DNA of 5,667 nt, taken from the NCBI GenBank assembly GCA_014729315.1, contig WJKD01000604.1, positions 1 through 5,667 of the forward strand, written 5' to 3'. The stretch's first letter is position 1, and each line of letters begins with the position of its first letter. Origin of the DNA: Promethearchaeota archaeon (GTDB lineage: Archaea; Asgardarchaeota; Lokiarchaeia; Sigynarchaeales; SOKP01). The notes under the pieces are model-generated. The model was not told the DNA's origin and ran no database searches. It worked only from the letters and a program-made list of their open reading frames with translations. Made by a program: the position numbers and the translations under genes. Shown here piece after piece: positions 885 to 5,443 of the stretch.

Positions 885-942
885 CGCCTCTAACGGAAAA
901 AATTCTTCCTTGCACTGCTTTCGTATTTTTCCGTTTGTGGCG
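885..942 (+). repeat. Hairpin element, copy 1 (complete)
   Basis: The left arm CGCC-TCT-AACGGAAAAA pairs with the right arm TTTTTCCGTT-TGT-GGCG. That gives a 4-bp outer box, a 3x3 unpaired spacer and a 10-bp inner stem. The apical segment at 904-923 is TCTTCCTTGCACTGCTTTCG, in which GC-ACT-GC can form a tiny nested hairpin. The apical segment is the part shared with the other copies. The stem sequence is its own. Confidence 0.8.
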
Positions 943-987
943 TTTCGGCGGACCATAAAACAAAATATAGCACCACTGAATATTCCA

Positions 988-1047
988 CGCTTTAACCAGT
1001 AAAACAATCTTGCGTGTCGGCATTCGTTGTTTTACTGGCTTAAGGCG
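988..1047 (+). repeat. Hairpin element, copy 2 (complete)
   Basis: The left arm (988-1007, CGC…CCAGTAAAACAA) pairs with the right arm (1027-1047, TTGTTTTACTGG…GGCG), with one bulged base near the outer end. The inner stem CCAGTAAAACAA/TTGTTTTACTGG is perfect over 12 bp and unlike the stem of copy 1. The apical segment at 1008-1026, TCTTGCGTGTCGGCATTCG, fits the family. Confidence 0.8.
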
Positions 1048-1105
1048 TACTTTCGATTCACCTGATGACGAGAGAAAATCAACGTTCACTTTTACAGAAA
1101 CCAAA

Positions 1106-1164
1106 GAGCGCTATAGAGGTCAACATCTTCTCGCTCGGCTTTCGTGTTGACCTCTTTTGCGCTC
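1106..1164 (+). repeat. Hairpin element, copy 3 (complete)
   Basis: The outer box GAGCGC/GCGCTC pairs over 6 bp. It is followed by a partly unpaired TAT/TTT spacer, then the perfect 11-bp inner stem AGAGGTCAACA/TGTTGACCTCT. The apical segment is TCTTCTCGCTCGGCTTTCG at 1126-1144, with a possible GC-TCG-GC mini-hairpin. This is the clearest example of the three-part build: outer box, short mismatch, inner stem. Confidence 0.85.
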
Positions 1165-1205
1165 AGGTGATCCTCTCCCCTTTCCAGAACGCATCATAAC
1201 CTGCT

Positions 1206-1261
1206 GCGCTTTGACCAGCAGGGCTTTCGTGTTGGCTTGCCATGACTGCTGGTCAATGCGC
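1206..1261 (+). repeat. Hairpin element, copy 4 (variant apical segment)
   Basis: The arms GCGC-TTT-GACCAGCAG and CTGCTGGTC-AAT-GCGC give the same build: 4-bp outer box, 3-base spacer and 9-bp inner stem. The 24-base apical segment at 1222-1245 does not begin with the usual TCTT. It opens with GGCTTTCGTGTTG, which is 13 bases identical to the middle of copy 3 (1137-1149). The copy looks like a rearranged or differently phased member. A decayed relative of its left side lies at 2185-2204. Confidence 0.65.
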
Positions 1262-1313
1262 ACCTGCACGGAGTGGATAAAGACAGAATCTAACTGCCTA
1301 TTCCATCGCATAA

Positions 1314-1372
1314 GCCATTAAATGCCGGAATATTCTTCCCGCTTTGCAATCGTATTTCCGGCGTTCATGGCG
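1314..1372 (+). repeat. Hairpin element, copy 5 (complete, one bulge)
   Basis: The left arm GCCATTAAATGCCGGAA pairs with the right arm TTCCGGCGTTCATGGC apart from one bulge and two mismatches. The apical segment at 1334-1352 is TCTTCCCGCTTTGCAATCG, with a possible GC-TTT-GC mini-hairpin. Soon after it comes GGATTAATCTGCCATCG (1383 on), which resembles GGATTAAATTGCGCCGTCG after the copy at 5388-5443. Flanking sequence therefore travels with the hairpin. Confidence 0.75.
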
Positions 1373-1481
1373 GAAGGCTTCTGGATTAATCTGCCATCGA
1401 TTAACTTAAAATCCTTGAGACCATGAAAAAAACGTTCGGCTTTGGATGTAGACCAATGCTTCCTGATGTGGAATTGACGGG

Positions 1482-1537
1482 GCGCAAATGGAGGTCAAAT
1501 TCTTCTCGCTGAGCAATCGTATTGACCTCCATTGCGC
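1482..1537 (+). repeat. Hairpin element, copy 6 (complete, one bulged A)
   Basis: GCGCAAATGGAGGTCAA pairs with TTGACCTCCATTGCGC, leaving one extra A in the left arm. The apical segment at 1501-1519 is TCTTCTCGCTGAGCAATCG, with a possible GC-TGA-GC mini-hairpin. This is the last member of the closely spaced row that begins at 885. Confidence 0.8.
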
Positions 1538-1705
1538 ATTATAAACTGAATGAATCGTCTCATCACCTTTACGTAGCTTTTTCTGTTTCTTCATTAGATT
1601 TTTTAATGACAAATTCCGCCATTATAATTTTACCGGTAGACTAGCTTAATATATTCGCTTTTTCTTTTTGGGTGTTGTGTGGCCTTTTATTTTTCTTCTT
1701 GGTGG

Positions 1706-1732
1706 CGCCTTTATCAGTATTTGATAAAGGCG
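1706..1732. repeat. Perfect 11-bp hairpin
   Basis: CGCCTTTATCA (1706-1716) and TGATAAAGGCG (1722-1732) pair perfectly around the 5-base loop GTATT. Neither strand has a T-run directly after the stem, so an ordinary intrinsic terminator is unlikely. It opens the series of regularly spaced palindromes that continues to 1932. Confidence 0.7.
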
Positions 1733-1765
1733 GCTCCCATTCACTATATTGATTCTTGCAAAATC

Positions 1766-1932
1766 CAAATTCTGCAATTTGCGGAATTTGACTAAGTGTC
1801 GAATTTAAAATTTTTGGTAAATTGGACAAATTGTCCAATTTGAAAACTCCGGCAATTGTGAAAAATTCAAAACGTGCAGATCCGCACGATTTGAAAACTT
1901 TTTAGCAAAATTCAAAGTCAACAAATTGTTGA
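1766..1932. repeat. Series of palindromes about 45-60 bases apart with shared linkers
   Basis: Four inverted repeats follow one another: CAAATTCTGC/GCGGAATTTG (1766-1790), AAATTGGACAA/TTGTCCAATTT around one base (1819-1841), TTCAAAACGTGC/GCACGATTTGAA around AGATCC (1866-1895), and TCAACAA/TTGTTGA around one base (1918-1932). With the hairpin at 1706 their centres are about 59, 52, 50 and 45 bases apart. The palindrome cores differ, but linkers recur: ATTTGAAAACT follows two of them and AAATTCAAA precedes two. This suggests a decayed tandem array of roughly 50-base units, each with its own palindrome. The minus-strand frame at 1641-1838 is open across part of it but has no start signal. Confidence 0.55.
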
Positions 1933-2099
1933 ATTTAGAAAAAATATTCATCATTACATTTAGACAAAAAACGAACTGCCGTAGATACTATATATTGACA
2001 TTTCACTAATAACGCCATTTAAACAACCTGTTCACAATTTATGCAGAGCTTGAAAATTGTGTGAATGAACTACACTCAAAGAAACCTTCAATATACTAC

Positions 2100-2126
2100 A
2101 GCCTTTGGCAACATTTGCCAAAGGCT
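2100..2126. terminator. 12-bp hairpin, weak terminator candidate
   Basis: AGCCTTTGGCAA (2100-2111) pairs perfectly with TTGCCAAAGGCT (2115-2126) around a 3-base loop. On the + strand it is followed by GAGAATC and then CTTTGGCTTTTTG. The T-run is therefore about 14 bases late for a standard intrinsic terminator, and part of the stem (CTTTGGCT) is repeated at 2133-2140. It could instead be another repeat unit. No gene ends just upstream. Confidence 0.3.
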
Positions 2127-2184
2127 GAGAATCTTTGGCTTTTTGTAAATTATTTATATAGTATTCTTTACCTTTTCCCGGACT

Positions 2185-2204
2185 CATCATAACATGCTGC
2201 GCTT
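2185..2204 (+). repeat. Decayed relative of the left flank of hairpin copy 4
   Basis: CATCATAAC-A-TGCTGCGCTT matches CATCATAAC-C-TGCTGCGCTT at 1192-1211 with a single difference. In the earlier copy this leads straight into the hairpin arm GCGCTTTGACCAGCAG. Here the arm reads GCGCTTCATTTGCGAACAG and no partner arm follows, so this is a broken member of the same family. Confidence 0.55.
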
Positions 2205-2207
2205 CAT

Positions 2208-2235
2208 TTGCGAACAGTTTTGAGACAGGTATAAT
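2208..2235 (+). promoter_or_regulatory. Possible sigma70-type promoter
   Basis: TTGCGA (2208-2213), a 16-base spacer and a perfect TATAAT (2230-2235) resemble a housekeeping promoter. No gene starts soon after. The nearest start is about 520 bases on, beyond the 134-base repeat. It may be fortuitous in AT-rich sequence, or may read through the repeat into the gene block. Confidence 0.3.
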
Positions 2236-2322
2236 TTTATGTAATTTGATGCGTTTATGGAATGGTTAATTTTAATGAAACGGACAGAACTGAAACACAA
2301 GTGAACACAATCAAAATAAAAA

Positions 2323-2456
2323 GATGGCAAAAGTTGTACAAAAGCTGCAACGATTTTCCGGTTTAAAGATTGCAATTTATTGTGGAAAATATTGGAAATA
2401 ATCCGGCGTAATAGAGGTCAAAATCTTACCTGTAGGGCATTCGTTTTGACGTCTAT
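2323..2456 (+). repeat. 134-base direct repeat, left copy, ending in a hairpin element
   Basis: This block aligns with 5306-5438 with one gap and about 80% identity by eye. The best-kept stretches are AGCTGCA, ATTGTGGAAAATA, TGGAAATAAT and the terminal hairpin. The two copies lie on either side of the four-gene block in the same orientation. Confidence 0.75.
2411..2456 (+). repeat. Hairpin element, copy 7 (outer box lost)
   Basis: The arms ATAGAGGTCAAAA and TTTTGACGTCTAT pair over 13 positions with one G-G mismatch. The apical segment at 2424-2443 is TCTTACCTGTAGGGCATTCG. The right arm continues CGAATAT instead of the expected TGCGC, so the outer box no longer pairs. Its sister at 5388-5443 has an intact outer box, which suggests this copy has decayed. 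Confidence 0.75.
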
Positions 2457-2754
2457 CGAATATATTTTACAAGAAAGTTTTCGGGCTAAAATTTTAAGGG
2501 CTGCAATAATACGATTTTGTAAGCTAACCAATTTAAGAATTTGATAAGCTAAGTGCCAAGTTTATTTATATTTTATCCATAAAAAAGTTAAAACGTTAGA
2601 CAGCTTAATATAAGGAATGTTCCATAAAAATAACATTATATAGATAGAAATTTCTTGCATTCGATGATTTTAGTTCTTAACATTCATAAGATTGAAACTG
2701 TAAATACTTTATGAATATTGATTTTACATTAGAATATTATTGGAAGGCGCAGCT

Positions 2755-2925
2755 ATGAGCTCATCAATTTCATATTACAACAGATCGCCACGAATATTAG
2801 CAAAAGATTTATATAATTTATGTTCAAGTAGAGATAGTATCGAAAGTGATTTCCAGAGAAATTTTAACGGTATTAAAATAACAAACAAAACATTAAATAT
2901 AAAGCAGCGTGGAAAAAATGGTTGA
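2755..2925 (+). CDS. Small 56-residue protein of unknown function
   Basis: I chose ATG at 2755 because GGAAGG at 2742-2747 sits 7 bases upstream, the best ribosome binding site of the block's first two genes. An in-frame TTG at 2740 would add five residues but overlaps that site. The product is hydrophilic and mostly basic at its C-terminus, with no signal peptide or membrane helix. A helical stretch (about residues 12-36, RILAKDLYNLCSSRDSIESD) is followed by a short strand-like part. This loosely recalls the start of small tRNA_anti-like OB-fold proteins, in which case the gene would be a truncated member, but the likeness is weak. It ends inside the next gene: its TGA overlaps the ATG at 2918 by eight bases, so translation is probably coupled. 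No clear promoter is visible in 2457-2754. Confidence 0.55.
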   Translation: MSSSISYYNRSPRILAKDLYNLCSSRDSIESDFQRNFNGIKITNKTLNIKQRGKNG

Positions 2926-3727
2926 CCAAAAGAAGATTCAATTTGAGTGTTCAAAATGTCATACAAAATATAATGCATTGGCTAAACAAGCAGGCAAAGT
3001 GGGATCATGCAAAAAATGTGGTACGAAAATAGTAGTTCCTAATCTCGAACCAGATTATTCAGATCAGGATTTAGATGATCATTATAAAATTGAGTCCTAC
3101 GCAACAAAAATTGGTGGGCAAGTATTTGCCATTGTTTATGAAAATACTAAAAGTTGGGTTGATGAATTCAAAATGCTAATGAAAAGAAAAATTGCTCAGT
3201 CAGCTATTGATATGATGGTTTTAGAGAGTGTATATTTAGGGCATTTTATTTCGCTGCAAAAAATTGAGCCTATTTTATCCAAAGAAGAAAACAATCTATT
3301 TGAAATTAATTTCAAAGAAGTTATGATCGTTGCTCTGAGTGCATATTTCAACTCGCCTTATAAAGAAAAAGATTTGATTAAACATAACGAACTGATCAAA
3401 GAATTATATCATGAATTTTTAGATGATAGAATATCGGCTTTCAATAACACAAATATTACAACGGTTAATATGTTTAAAAACTTGTTAGTGCATAATGCCT
3501 TTAATAACAACAATTATGTTGATATAAAATTTATGGAAATGAAGTTTAAAAATAAATTAAGAATTAAGCTCGCTTATTTTTTTAATAATCTTGCTGATGA
3601 TTCTGATTCGAATATTGATAAATCGGCATATTTCGATATACGACTTTTAGATAGTTTTATATTAAACGTTTGGAATTCAATAATGAGTATTGATATTAAG
3701 AAGATATCTTCAGAGATTTCAAATTGA
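2918..3727 (+). CDS. Zinc-ribbon protein with an uncharacterised helical domain
   Basis: The N-terminus is a clear zinc ribbon. Cys11-x2-Cys14 and Cys31-x2-Cys34 are embedded in the pattern F-x-C-x2-C … AGK-x3-C-x2-C-G-x-K-I-V-V-P, as seen in MJ0042-type zinc ribbons that precede many unrelated domains. An acidic linker (about 42-60) leads to a mostly helical domain (about 60-269). This has no membrane helix, no enzyme motif I recognise, and an Asn-rich stretch near 176-199. The protein is probably cytosolic. A GTG at 2909 would add three residues. I prefer ATG 2918, preceded by GGA only four bases away; both starts are poorly signalled, which fits coupling to the 56-residue gene it overlaps. 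The next gene begins 50 bases after its stop. The zinc ribbon may bind nucleic acid or a partner protein; the main domain's role is unknown. Confidence 0.85.
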   Translation: MVDQKKIQFECSKCHTKYNALAKQAGKVGSCKKCGTKIVVPNLEPDYSDQDLDDHYKIESYATKIGGQVFAIVYENTKSWVDEFKMLMKRKIAQSAIDMMVLESVYLGHFISLQKIEPILSKEENNLFEINFKEVMIVALSAYFNSPYKEKDLIKHNELIKELYHEFLDDRISAFNNTNITTVNMFKNLLVHNAFNNNNYVDIKFMEMKFKNKLRIKLAYFFNNLADDSDSNIDKSAYFDIRLLDSFILNVWNSIMSIDIKKISSEISN

Positions 3728-3756
3728 TTGTAAGATATTGTAAACTATAGTATAAT
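3728..3756 (+). promoter_or_regulatory. Promoter for the 167-residue membrane protein gene
   Basis: TTGTAA (3728-3733), a 17-base spacer and a perfect TATAAT (3751-3756) fill the 50-base gap right after the zinc-ribbon gene's stop. Transcription would start near 3763, leaving a leader of about 15 bases before ATG 3778. AGGG at 3761-3764 is too far (13 bases) to be a good ribosome binding site. The third gene may therefore be expressed separately from the first two, with poor or leaderless-like initiation. Confidence 0.5.
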
Positions 3757-3777
3757 CATTAGGGCTGTTAAAATAAA

Positions 3778-4281
3778 ATGAAAGAATTAATATTTCAAAT
3801 AACCGCAGCTTTGATACCAGCAATATTAATTGCATTATTAACATCATATTTGACTGTAAGATTATCAATAAAACAATTTTATTCTCAAAAGTGGTGGGAA
3901 AAGAAAGCAGAAATGTATTCAAAAATTATTGAGTACCTATCATATTTGGAAGTCGAATATAATAATGTACTTGGACTTTATTTAGATATCGATGATAATT
4001 TTAGAAATGATAATGATTTTAAAGCAAAATGCCATGAATCATACAAATTTCTTCAATTATTAGTCGCACAAGGAACTTTTATTGTTACAAATGAAACTGT
4101 GAAGGTACTAAAAGAGAATCTAAAGCTGATTGATAAATTTGAAAATCATCTGGATGAAGTAAAATGCGTATCTGGAAGCGACGGAAATGCCATTAAAATG
4201 TTAAAGGATATTATTGAAAACATAAAAGATGGAATCGATGAAATTCGAGGACAAGCCAAACACGATTTAAATGTAAAATAA
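3778..4281 (+). CDS. Single-pass membrane protein with a cytosolic helical domain
   Basis: This 167-residue protein has one N-terminal membrane helix at about residues 4-27 (hydrophobic, few charges). It is followed at once by Arg28, Lys32, Lys38, Lys42 and Lys43, so the C-terminal part should lie in the cytosol. After the helix comes the segment QFYSQKWWEKKAEMYSKII (about 33-51). From memory, a similar aromatic/basic FxSxKWWExKxExY segment recurs right after the membrane helix in many uncharacterised bacterial proteins; no function is attached to it. The remainder is charged and helical, with coiled-coil-like stretches near 105-128 and 138-160. ATG 3778 is the only sensible start, since it begins the membrane helix. 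It has no strong ribosome binding site but follows a good promoter. Role unknown; it may work with the next membrane protein. Confidence 0.85.
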   Translation: MKELIFQITAALIPAILIALLTSYLTVRLSIKQFYSQKWWEKKAEMYSKIIEYLSYLEVEYNNVLGLYLDIDDNFRNDNDFKAKCHESYKFLQLLVAQGTFIVTNETVKVLKENLKLIDKFENHLDEVKCVSGSDGNAIKMLKDIIENIKDGIDEIRGQAKHDLNVK

Positions 4282-4499
4282 TAATTATAAGGAAGATTGT
4301 CTCCAGAATTTATTTTAGCAAGACATATATAATTACTTTGCTTTACCAGAGTAATCCTGTATTGCTCGATTGCCAATCGTATTTGCAGCGAAAACAAATT
4401 TAAGGTATCTTGAAAACCTTCCATTTCTCTTGACTGTTTTAGCAAGTATAAAGAAACTATAGAAATGGTTATTGTAGTTGCGTAAAAGGAGTAAGCAAA
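4282..4499 (+). other. 218-base gap between the two membrane-protein genes
   Basis: The gap holds half of a hairpin element (4360-4390) and the weak inverted repeat AAGGT/ACCTT (4402-4406 and 4416-4420). TTGACT (4430-4435) and TATAAA or TATAGA boxes lie nearby, but with spacers of 11 or 22 bases that do not make a standard promoter. The gap is long for an operon, so the last gene may have its own transcript or may have been joined to the block by recombination. Confidence 0.45.
4360..4390 (+). repeat. Hairpin element, copy 8 (right half only)
   Basis: TATTGCTCGATTGCCAATCG at 4360-4379 fits the family's apical segment with few changes. TATTTGCAGCG follows as a typical right arm ending in GCG. 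The preceding bases (CGCTGCAAATA expected, AGAGTAATCCTG seen) do not pair with it, so the left arm has been lost or replaced. Confidence 0.55.
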
Positions 4500-5162
4500 A
4501 TGTCAATTCAAGAAGTCATACTTGAACCTGATAAAAATCCGGACTATTTTGATATCTTGCGACAATACAACGAATTGATGGATATATGGAATAAATGTAA
4601 TAATGAAATTATTGGTTTTAAAATACCCAAAATATGGTTAGTTAAAACAAAGAAAAAGATTATCAAAATTGGCCTGAAATGCAAGAAATTACAGGACGAT
4701 TTTCTGCAATGGAATATTAAAGCGACCAATTTTGCTATGGAGCCACACTATTTTATGGAAGAATCTAAAGAAAATAAGGAATTAGTTTATTTACATTTTA
4801 CAAATAATTTACGTTATTCCATCAATTACATGAATAACTTGATGACACTGTTAACAGAAAATTATAATAAAAAATTTGTGCAAATAGATGAACAGCGTAA
4901 TTTTAATATTGCAATAACGGCTTTCCTTATCGGATTAGTCAGTTTTATTGTGGCAGTGTATTCTTTGTACAATCAACCAAATTTAGAGAAAAAGTTTGAC
5001 ACAATTGGTGCCAAAATGAATTTAAAGAAAATAGAATCAAGAATAGGAATATTGGATAGTATGGCAAACGCAAATAGTGAGAAACTTAATTATATTAAGA
5101 GCGAGTTGGACAGTCTTTCAAAAACAGAATCAACAATTAGTAAGTCCAGCAGGATTAAATAA
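4500..5162 (+). CDS. Single-pass membrane protein with a C-terminal coiled coil
   Basis: This 220-residue protein has the best start in the window: AGGAG at 4487-4491, eight bases before ATG 4500. Residues 1-134 are hydrophilic and helical, with a very basic patch at about 49-63 (KTKKKIIKIGLKCKK). One membrane helix lies at about 135-157. Residues 162-213 look like a coiled coil (IESRIGILDSMANANSEKLNYIKSELDSL shows spaced Ile/Leu). There is no signal peptide and no catalytic motif. By the positive-inside rule the large basic N-terminal part should be cytosolic, placing the coiled coil outside the inner membrane, although Lys164-165 make this uncertain. I recognise no family. Its AT-rich codon use resembles the two preceding genes. 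Half a hairpin element lies before it and a decayed one after it, so it may have been acquired as its own unit. Confidence 0.88.
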   Translation: MSIQEVILEPDKNPDYFDILRQYNELMDIWNKCNNEIIGFKIPKIWLVKTKKKIIKIGLKCKKLQDDFLQWNIKATNFAMEPHYFMEESKENKELVYLHFTNNLRYSINYMNNLMTLLTENYNKKFVQIDEQRNFNIAITAFLIGLVSFIVAVYSLYNQPNLEKKFDTIGAKMNLKKIESRIGILDSMANANSEKLNYIKSELDSLSKTESTISKSSRIK

Positions 5163-5196
5163 CATAATTGATAGCGCACACTATTACAATGGACGA

Positions 5197-5262
5197 GCCA
5201 TACAATATAGGACAATTTTTTAAATGCTTTGCCTTTCAATCGTATTTCCCGTATTTATGGCG
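5197..5262 (+). repeat. Hairpin element, copy 9 (decayed)
   Basis: The right arm TATTTCCCGTATTTATGGCG (5243-5262) is typical of the family and resembles that of copy 5. The apical segment (5225-5242, TGCTTTGCCTTTCAATCG) keeps only the CAATCG end clearly. The left arm GCCATACAATATAGGACAAT (from 5198) matches the expected partner only with several gaps. It begins about 35 bases after the last gene's stop. Confidence 0.5.
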
Positions 5263-5305
5263 TTAAGTTTTTGACCACAACTCACCAGCGGATTTGAAAC
5301 ATAAA

Positions 5306-5438
5306 GTTGACCAAAGTTATACAGAAGCTGCAGCAATTGTAAACATTTAAGATTTAAATTATTGTGGAAAATAGTGGAAATAATGCAGTGCAATAGACGT
5401 CAAAATCTTACCTGCCGGGCAATCGTTTTGACGTCTAT
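5306..5438 (+). repeat. 133-base direct repeat, right copy, ending in a hairpin element
   Basis: This is the partner of 2323-2456, with about 80% identity by eye and one gap. Upstream similarity fades quickly, with TGAAACATAAA here against TGAAACACAA at 2291-2300 followed by extra sequence there. The two copies enclose about 2.85 kb containing all four credible genes. Confidence 0.75.
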
Positions 5439-5443
5439 TGCGC
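5388..5443 (+). repeat. Hairpin element, copy 10 (best preserved)
   Basis: The left arm GTGCAATAGACGTCAAAA and right arm TTTTGACGTCTATTGCGC pair over all 18 positions, with only one G-T wobble. The apical segment at 5406-5425 is TCTTACCTGCCGGGCAATCG, in which TGC-CGG-GCA can form a nested mini-hairpin. The near-perfect stem suggests recent origin or active maintenance. Confidence 0.85.

Follow-up and report, generated by a model that had tools for sequence, protein, structure and literature searches.

Covarying hairpins with a conserved apex on one strand of an archaeal metagenome contig, possibly folded-DNA sites of a cassette-like array

The 5,667 bases analyzed here (the window, apparently a whole metagenome contig) contain seven hairpins that share a tip of 19–20 bases, starting at 904, 1008, 1126, 1334, 1501, 2424 and 5406, and whose stems change on both sides yet stay paired, which supports the view that something preserves their folded shape. 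A sequence-only reading had proposed such a repeated hairpin with a conserved tip and variable, self-complementary stems, and this proposal holds for the seven copies. What the hairpins do is less certain. The explanation favored below, with less than even confidence, is that the array is cassette-like and that the hairpins serve it as folded-DNA sites, in the manner of integron attC sites. The elements of the window, all on the + strand, are as follows.

c0, 7–30, at the contig edge: possible copy, only a c1-like 3′ arm, tip unrecognizable
c1, 884–943: hairpin, tip 904–923 (DNA folding, arm pairing, covariation)
c2, 987–1048: hairpin, tip 1008–1026 (DNA folding, arm pairing, covariation)
c3, 1106–1164: hairpin, tip 1126–1144 (DNA folding, arm pairing, covariation)
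c4, 1205–1262: hairpin with near-perfect stem; of the tip, its loop retains the 3′ half alone (GGCTTTCGTGTTG)
c5, 1314–1371: hairpin, tip 1334–1352 (arm pairing, covariation; DNA folding z only −1.7)
c6, 1482–1537: hairpin, tip 1501–1519 (DNA folding, arm pairing, covariation)
c7, 2411–2456: hairpin, tip 2424–2443, inner stem with one G.G mismatch
2909–3727: open reading frame of 272 aa from a GTG start (269 aa in the protein collection)
3778–4281: open reading frame of 167 aa, member of a family of unknown function
c9, 4360–4390: stemless copy, reduced to the tip's 3′ half and the beginning of the 3′ arm
4500–5162: open reading frame of 220 aa, no relative found
c10, 5214–5263: copy retaining the tip's 3′ half with a 3′ arm
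c8, 5388–5443: hairpin, tip 5406–5425 (DNA folding, arm pairing, covariation)

Eight copies had been listed from the sequence, of which seven have stems (the one at 2424 pairs at 11 of 12 positions with a single G.G) and the one at 4360 is stemless (2 of 12); fully complementary arms were found at six of the eight places, as stated. The proposed 20-base tip pattern is matched exactly at 904, 2424 and 5406, that is in three of eight copies only, since the tip is 19 bases long in four further good copies. Missing from that list were the near-perfect hairpin c4 and the copy at 5236. The 3′ half of the tip alone is retained at 1223, 4373 and 5236, and the tip remnant in the loop of c4, GGCTTTCGTGTTG, consists of the same 13 bases as in c3. 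In c10 an outer GCCAT...ATGGC can be seen by eye, a pairing that folding does not predict. GCG recurs, again by eye, at the 3′ base of the hairpins.

The evidence for a preserved fold comes foremost from the stems. Watson-Crick pairs occupy 74 of 84 inner-stem positions in the seven copies, and when arms were swapped between copies only two of 5040 permutations, the true pairing included, reached this value. In the seven-copy alignment 85.7% of cells are paired, and 11 of 14 stem pairs changed on both sides, which none of 500 shuffles equaled. The covariation score is 0.738 as compared to a shuffled mean of 0.199 (0/500) and falls to 0.05–0.18 on shifting the partner strand by 1–3 positions; none of five measures was reached by any of the 500 shuffles. 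The GAGGTC subfamily, which comprises four closely related copies, has compensatory changes at 3 of 14 positions, and at one of these c7 shows a G.G intermediate. Selection on the folded form, or a copying process that retains it, had been suggested from the sequence, and preservation as such is thus supported by covariation both in the seven copies and in one subfamily. Conservation is distributed the other way round: invariant columns make up 11 of 20 in the tip and only 3 of 28 in the arms, and outside the GAGGTC group the 12-base 5′ arms match between copies at only 2–6 places. Decayed insertion-sequence ends or a MITE would be expected to have conserved terminal arms, a variable middle and target duplications; variable arms around a conserved middle are the opposite as far as arms and middle go.

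Shuffled sequence provides a further comparison. Perfect arms of at least 10 bases enclosing loops of 17–26 occur in seven position bins of the window as compared to 0 or 1 per dinucleotide shuffle (n = 20). With DNA energies none of 200 shuffles folds as well as c1, c2, c3, c6, c8 or the extra hairpin at 1205, the result being weaker for c5 (12/200) and c7 (4/200), and the regions of c9 and c10 are matched by 52/200 (4340–4400) and 149/200 (5205–5265). The predicted hairpins span some 46–62 nt, with internal loops or a bulge in c1, c2, c3, c5 and c6 at no constant position. Intrinsic terminators, with their G+C-rich stem, short loop and T run, were rejected: of six terminator-like sites only one (1208–1224) overlaps a hairpin, c4, and none overlaps the seven.

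Are the hairpins read as RNA or as DNA? It could be imagined that 884–1537 encodes a noncoding RNA, that the later copies belong to untranslated regions and that the tips bind a regulatory protein, an alternative that we regard as somewhat unlikely. It would fit the position of every copy on the gene strand, the succession of six hairpins at intervals of about 100 bases where long open reading frames are lacking, and the folding of 860–1560 as RNA, which beats 20 of 20 shuffles (z −7.1). The mini-hairpin proposed within the tip also appears in the minimum-energy RNA fold of five of the seven copies (c1, c2, c3, c7 and c8), c5 having none and c6 another small pairing; with DNA energies it is retained in c2, c7 and c8 and absent from the remaining copies. 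Sponge RNAs of the CsrB/RsmZ type likewise consist of consecutive hairpins that share a tip but differ in their stems, the tips of which bind a regulatory protein, and the Csr binding-site motif is GGA. The window tips, however, contain no GGA on the + strand and there is no Rfam match at gathering score in the window, a search of 850–1600 giving one chance-like sub-threshold match to a snoRNA family (E 0.89). Moreover, there is one G.U among 84 standard inner pairs, which has a probability of 0.0015 at an assumed G.U share of 10% and of 0.07 at 5%. Measured against the G.U content that is usual in RNA stems, so few G.T pairs lean toward pairing or copying at the DNA level rather than RNA.

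Copying without selection is one such possibility. Template switching during replication could re-perfect palindromes, so that the stems are kept by copying and the tip is a leftover of common descent. This process can create and maintain hairpin stems (PMC8794818), and in the window the scarcity of G.T pairs, several G-C to C-G swaps among stem pairs and the near-perfect new stem of c4 despite loss of half its tip are consistent with it. It fails to explain the invariant tip columns amid dissimilar 5′ arms, however, and does not fit the uncorrected G.G mismatch of c7, and we consider it improbable as an explanation.

The arrangement of the copies provides further constraints. All ten best matches to the 3′ half of the tip lie on the + strand, as do the three long open reading frames; if copies are independent, such a one-sided arrangement has a probability of 0.016 for the seven complete hairpins and of 0.002 for ten. 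Sequence shared by c3 and c6 stops at the hairpin edge on both sides, and c7 and c8, which in addition share an upstream block of about 90 bases, diverge past the 3′ arm. These features bear on whether the hairpins are palindromes of the REP or small-dispersed-repeat type, spread around the genome through copying by a nuclease-transposase that acts on single strands, the neighboring genes being irrelevant. REP and REPIN elements, which have the TnpA-REP nuclease, are short intergenic palindromes present in several copies (PMC6006769). The window hairpins resemble them in this respect, and a shared unit that is the hairpin alone in c3 and c6, placement in intergenic DNA and the presence in one contig of two subfamilies that differ in their stems would all be expected. 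On the other hand, ten copies on one strand are unexpected for scattered insertions, a GTAG or GTGG foot is found in none of the seven hairpins (13–30 bases 5′ of the tip), and 19–20 unpaired or weakly paired tip bases contrast with the short loop of REPs; a loop of 2–5 nt, or a second stem across a bulge of 1–3 nt, is not seen, as the mini-hairpin leaves more than three unpaired bases on each side. Small dispersed repeats (21–27 nt) of Nostoc-type cyanobacteria show compensatory stem changes and are nested in other repeats. The window hairpins would resemble them in being conserved over a very short length and in compensating their stem changes, but differ in having a conserved tip on long stems and one orientation. 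An origin of this kind seems unlikely to us.

A close known parallel is the attC site, at which the integron integrase IntI recombines. attC palindromes are 57–142 nt long, and their conservation is confined to boundary AAC (R″) and GTT (R′), the top being a variable terminal structure (PMC2727003). Such sites also have extrahelical bases and an unpaired central spacer, whereas the internal loops and bulge of the window hairpins keep no constant position. The window hairpins resemble attC sites in being palindromes of roughly similar length with variable yet pairing arms in one orientation, arrayed with same-strand genes of unknown function, one of which, that for the 167-aa protein, has a relative between attC-type sites. 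They are nevertheless not attC, because their conserved part is the apex and not the base. Paired AAC/GTT triplets occur in three of seven copies, at 12, 5 and 4 bases from the tip in c1, c2 and c3, hence at no fixed basal place, and are absent from c5, c6, c7 and c8.

For the 167-aa protein, four relatives turned up in genomes. One (L022, 1501–1938) is flanked by two of six attC-type copies ending in TAACAA/GGCGTTA in an integron-like array, and a second (L017) is separated by about 1.65 kb from an attC-type site, its genome also having an integron integrase above the curated cut-off. The other two, L016 (at a contig end) and L023, showed no attC-type site in simple scans that also missed visible sites: the first home-made finder matched nothing anywhere, and the second missed the L017 site, which had been recognized by eye. 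Applied to the window, this second finder returned three rows, one being c1 on the minus strand, as compared to a shuffled mean of 1.35; neither finder is counted as evidence on the window. The 167-aa protein matches phrog_17948, of unknown function (E 6.9e-11), and its AlphaFold model has a mean pLDDT of 89.1; no relative was found for the 272-aa protein, whose N-terminus is weakly zinc-ribbon-like, or for the 220-aa protein. No integrase or nuclease gene was recognized among the three long open reading frames and no recombinase in the window. PADLOC returned nothing, NCBIfam only weak matches under cut-off, and a PDB profile search a single weak match (6egc, molecule SC_2L4HC2_23). Protein alignment A1 matched in 0/8, 2/198, 0/198 and 2/249 genomes; a protein-side scan of IMG/VR gave 17 pattern stretches with none confirmed; and against plasmids and phages protein P0003 had no match and protein P0011 two distant plasmid matches (25–27% identity).

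For the hairpin itself, the sequence-only reading had named many hits in related genomes as the supporting outcome, but pattern and covariance-model searches brought no convincing match in the parts of the collections covered, an absence that carries little weight. Covariance model R1 gave 0/247, 0/345, 0/349, 0/132 and 0/39 across genome sets, with candidates scored in part for most genomes listed and no positive genome to calibrate sensitivity. Three patterns fitting 2, 4 and 2 window copies had no match in IMG/VR. The sole IMG/VR match to another pattern (L013) is unconvincing, with 6 of 12 stem positions paired, where window hairpins have 8–12; it scores 24.4 bits under the covariance model (E 0.013 within the set preselected by the pattern). 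The pattern fitting four window copies matched genome contigs 12 times in scattered phyla, with 5–9 of 12 positions paired, of which the pattern itself dictates about four, and the best match (L005, Erysipelotrichales; stem of 8 pairs, 17.3 bits) is taken as chance. The tip pattern in 228 genomes yielded 59 matches in 51 genomes, at most four per genome, the backwards control giving 32; four of the 59 loci were examined and pair at only 1–5 of 12 stem positions. Window DNA had no match among plasmids and phages, and only chance ones once the E-value limit was set at 10; no description of the hairpin was found in the open-licence papers searched.

Taken as folded-DNA sites, the hairpins would act as single-stranded DNA in attC fashion, and the window would be a piece of a cassette-like array. 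The tip would be bound by an enzyme that reads structure, in all probability a recombinase or nuclease whose gene lies elsewhere, and that recognizes the apex sequence TCTTnC ... GCwwTCGT together with stem shape, each stem being free to drift while pairing holds, and cassettes may move. We favor such sites because the apex is conserved while the stems covary, because all copies lie on the strand of the long open reading frames, because the 167-aa family occurs between attC-type sites in another genome, because G.T pairs are few and the GAGGTC subfamily has compensatory changes, and because c3 and c6 have nothing but the hairpin in common and c7 and c8 diverge after the 3′ arm. This reading is weakened by the lack of a recombinase in the window and of hairpin relatives in the collections searched, by AAC/GTT triplets without fixed place and by the absence of attC-type sites from the scans of L016 and L023. 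Cassettes in particular are harder to reconcile with the hairpins between 904 and 1501, whose spacing of about 100 bases without a long open reading frame is very short for cassettes, and with open reading frames that start 110 and 450 bases past the preceding hairpin copy as compared to about 25 bases past the site in L022. More doubtful is that the hairpins represent a class of apex-read recombination sites that gathers cassettes analogously to integrons with a different recombinase and with stems free to change.

Should the hairpins prove to be folded-DNA sites, storing and moving genes via the shape of single-stranded DNA would have a second solution, with recognition at the hairpin end opposite to that of attC; if they act as RNA, they would mark an undescribed RNA-binding motif. 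Whichever reading holds, the tip with its covarying stem provides a concrete signature with which to search for the host and for the protein that reads the tip.

The sequence-only reading had described a hairpin family in which a conserved tip is carried by stems that vary in sequence but stay paired, and this description was borne out. The seven complete hairpins (c1, c2, c3, c5, c6, c7 and c8, with tips at 904, 1008, 1126, 1334, 1501, 2424 and 5406) share a 19-20-base tip, their stems keep a common register, and strong covariation together with the preserved tip identifies them as a genuine structural family. Watson-Crick pairs occupy 74 of 84 inner stem positions. In the seven-copy alignment 85.7% of the stem cells are paired, both partners have changed in 11 of the 14 stem pairs, and 11 of 20 tip columns are invariant as compared to 3 of 28 arm columns. 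None of 500 shuffles, which ignore the relatedness of the copies, matched any of five covariation measures, and the signal was lost when the partner strand was slid out of register. Within the GAGGTC group (c3, c6, c7 and c8) compensatory differences are found at 3 of 14 positions, at one of which c7 retains a mismatched G.G state, and at least one copy is unpaired at 5 of 14. A 143-base block (2314-2456 and 5297-5438, 80% identity) enters c7 and c8 and stops within the 3' arm.

The window appears to be an entire metagenome contig, as its three proteins are each recorded a single time, on a contig of 5,667 bases. Its G+C content is 0.41-0.50 before position 1500 and about 0.24-0.35 thereafter (500-base windows, by start position), and no ORF longer than 93 codons is found in the first 2.7 kb. 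The long ORFs lie downstream:

2909-3727, + strand, ORF 1, 269-aa protein
3778-4281, + strand, ORF, 167-aa protein
4500-5162, + strand, ORF, 220-aa protein

The G+C-richer start also contains 69-base direct repeats (185-253 and 323-391, 72% identity, 138 bases apart) with a weak third echo at 490, and a 26-base inverted repeat (167-192 and 378-403, 85% complementary, arms separated by 185 bases). A 42-base repeat outside the hairpins (1170-1211 and 2163-2204, 81% identity) has no hairpin after its second copy. At 2099-2139, perfectly complementary 13-base arms enclose a loop of 3 bases, and this inverted repeat overlaps a terminator-like site that has a T run at its end.

The near-perfect hairpin c4 (1205-1262) retains the 3' half of the tip alone, and copies at 4373 and 5236 have this half without a predicted stem. 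A scan of the window with a 5'-half profile gave no convincing 5'-half-only copy, the best extra matches, 11.3 (+ strand, inside ORF 1) and 13.9 (- strand), being noise-sized. Template switching is reported to be able to keep stems paired (PMC8794818), and c4, with half a tip on its near-perfect stem, resembles a product of this process, which however leaves the invariant tip unexplained. Template switching combined with descent is considered quite improbable as the origin of the family.

The ten best matches to a 3'-half profile, itself derived from seven of them, all lie on the + strand (scores 12.2-19.1; next 7.3), an orientation compatible with both a DNA and an RNA reading. Only one G.T is found among 84 standard inner pairs, which for RNA stems has a probability of 0.0015 or 0.07 at assumed G.U shares of 10% or 5%; the count is below RNA expectation at about 10% and not decisive at 5%. 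RNA hairpins are considered somewhat unlikely.

Many hits in related genomes had been named as what would support the reading. No convincing copy was found in IMG/VR, in genome contigs (one pattern scan) or in the genomes of the sampled phyla (at most 349 from each), with scans that were narrow (one stem group or strict tip) or of undefined sensitivity. An Erysipelotrichales locus (L005, 6826-6872) with the tip pattern, an 8-pair stem and 17.3 bits under the model was judged a chance match. That the family represents dispersed palindromes, such as REP elements or small dispersed repeats, is considered unlikely.

Among 5.8 billion proteins searched, the 269-aa and 220-aa proteins matched nothing but themselves. 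The 167-aa protein, whose model is largely helical and has a single long helix at the N-terminus, had 31 relatives; 653 genome searches yielded four genomic relatives. L022 carries six copies of a repeat about 120 bases long, two of which flank the relative (1480-1950). The repeat starts TAACAA and in its five complete copies finishes GGCGTTA, the pattern of attC, the recombination site of integrons. At L017 about 1.65 kb separates the relative (8717-9172) from an attC-type site, and that genome encodes an integron integrase (356 bits, cut-off 265), which exceeded the cut-off in none of 14 control genomes. Therefore, the 167-aa family can travel as a cassette. No attC-type site was recognized near the relatives at L016 and L023.

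Conservation in attC, as described in parts of two papers (PMC3607928, PMC2727003), is confined to the boundary AAC and GTT and the top is variable, whereas in the window hairpins the top is the conserved part. Three of the seven have a paired AAC/GTT, at distances of 12, 5 and 4 bases from the tip, and the remaining four have none. The identity of the hairpins as attC was rejected. The window array has in common with attC arrays its direction, arms that pair without sequence conservation and a cassette-type gene. Tentatively, we favor folded-DNA sites within a cassette-like array. By analogy the hairpins may act in an attC-like manner though they are not attC, and the 167-aa gene of the window would itself be carried in a cassette.
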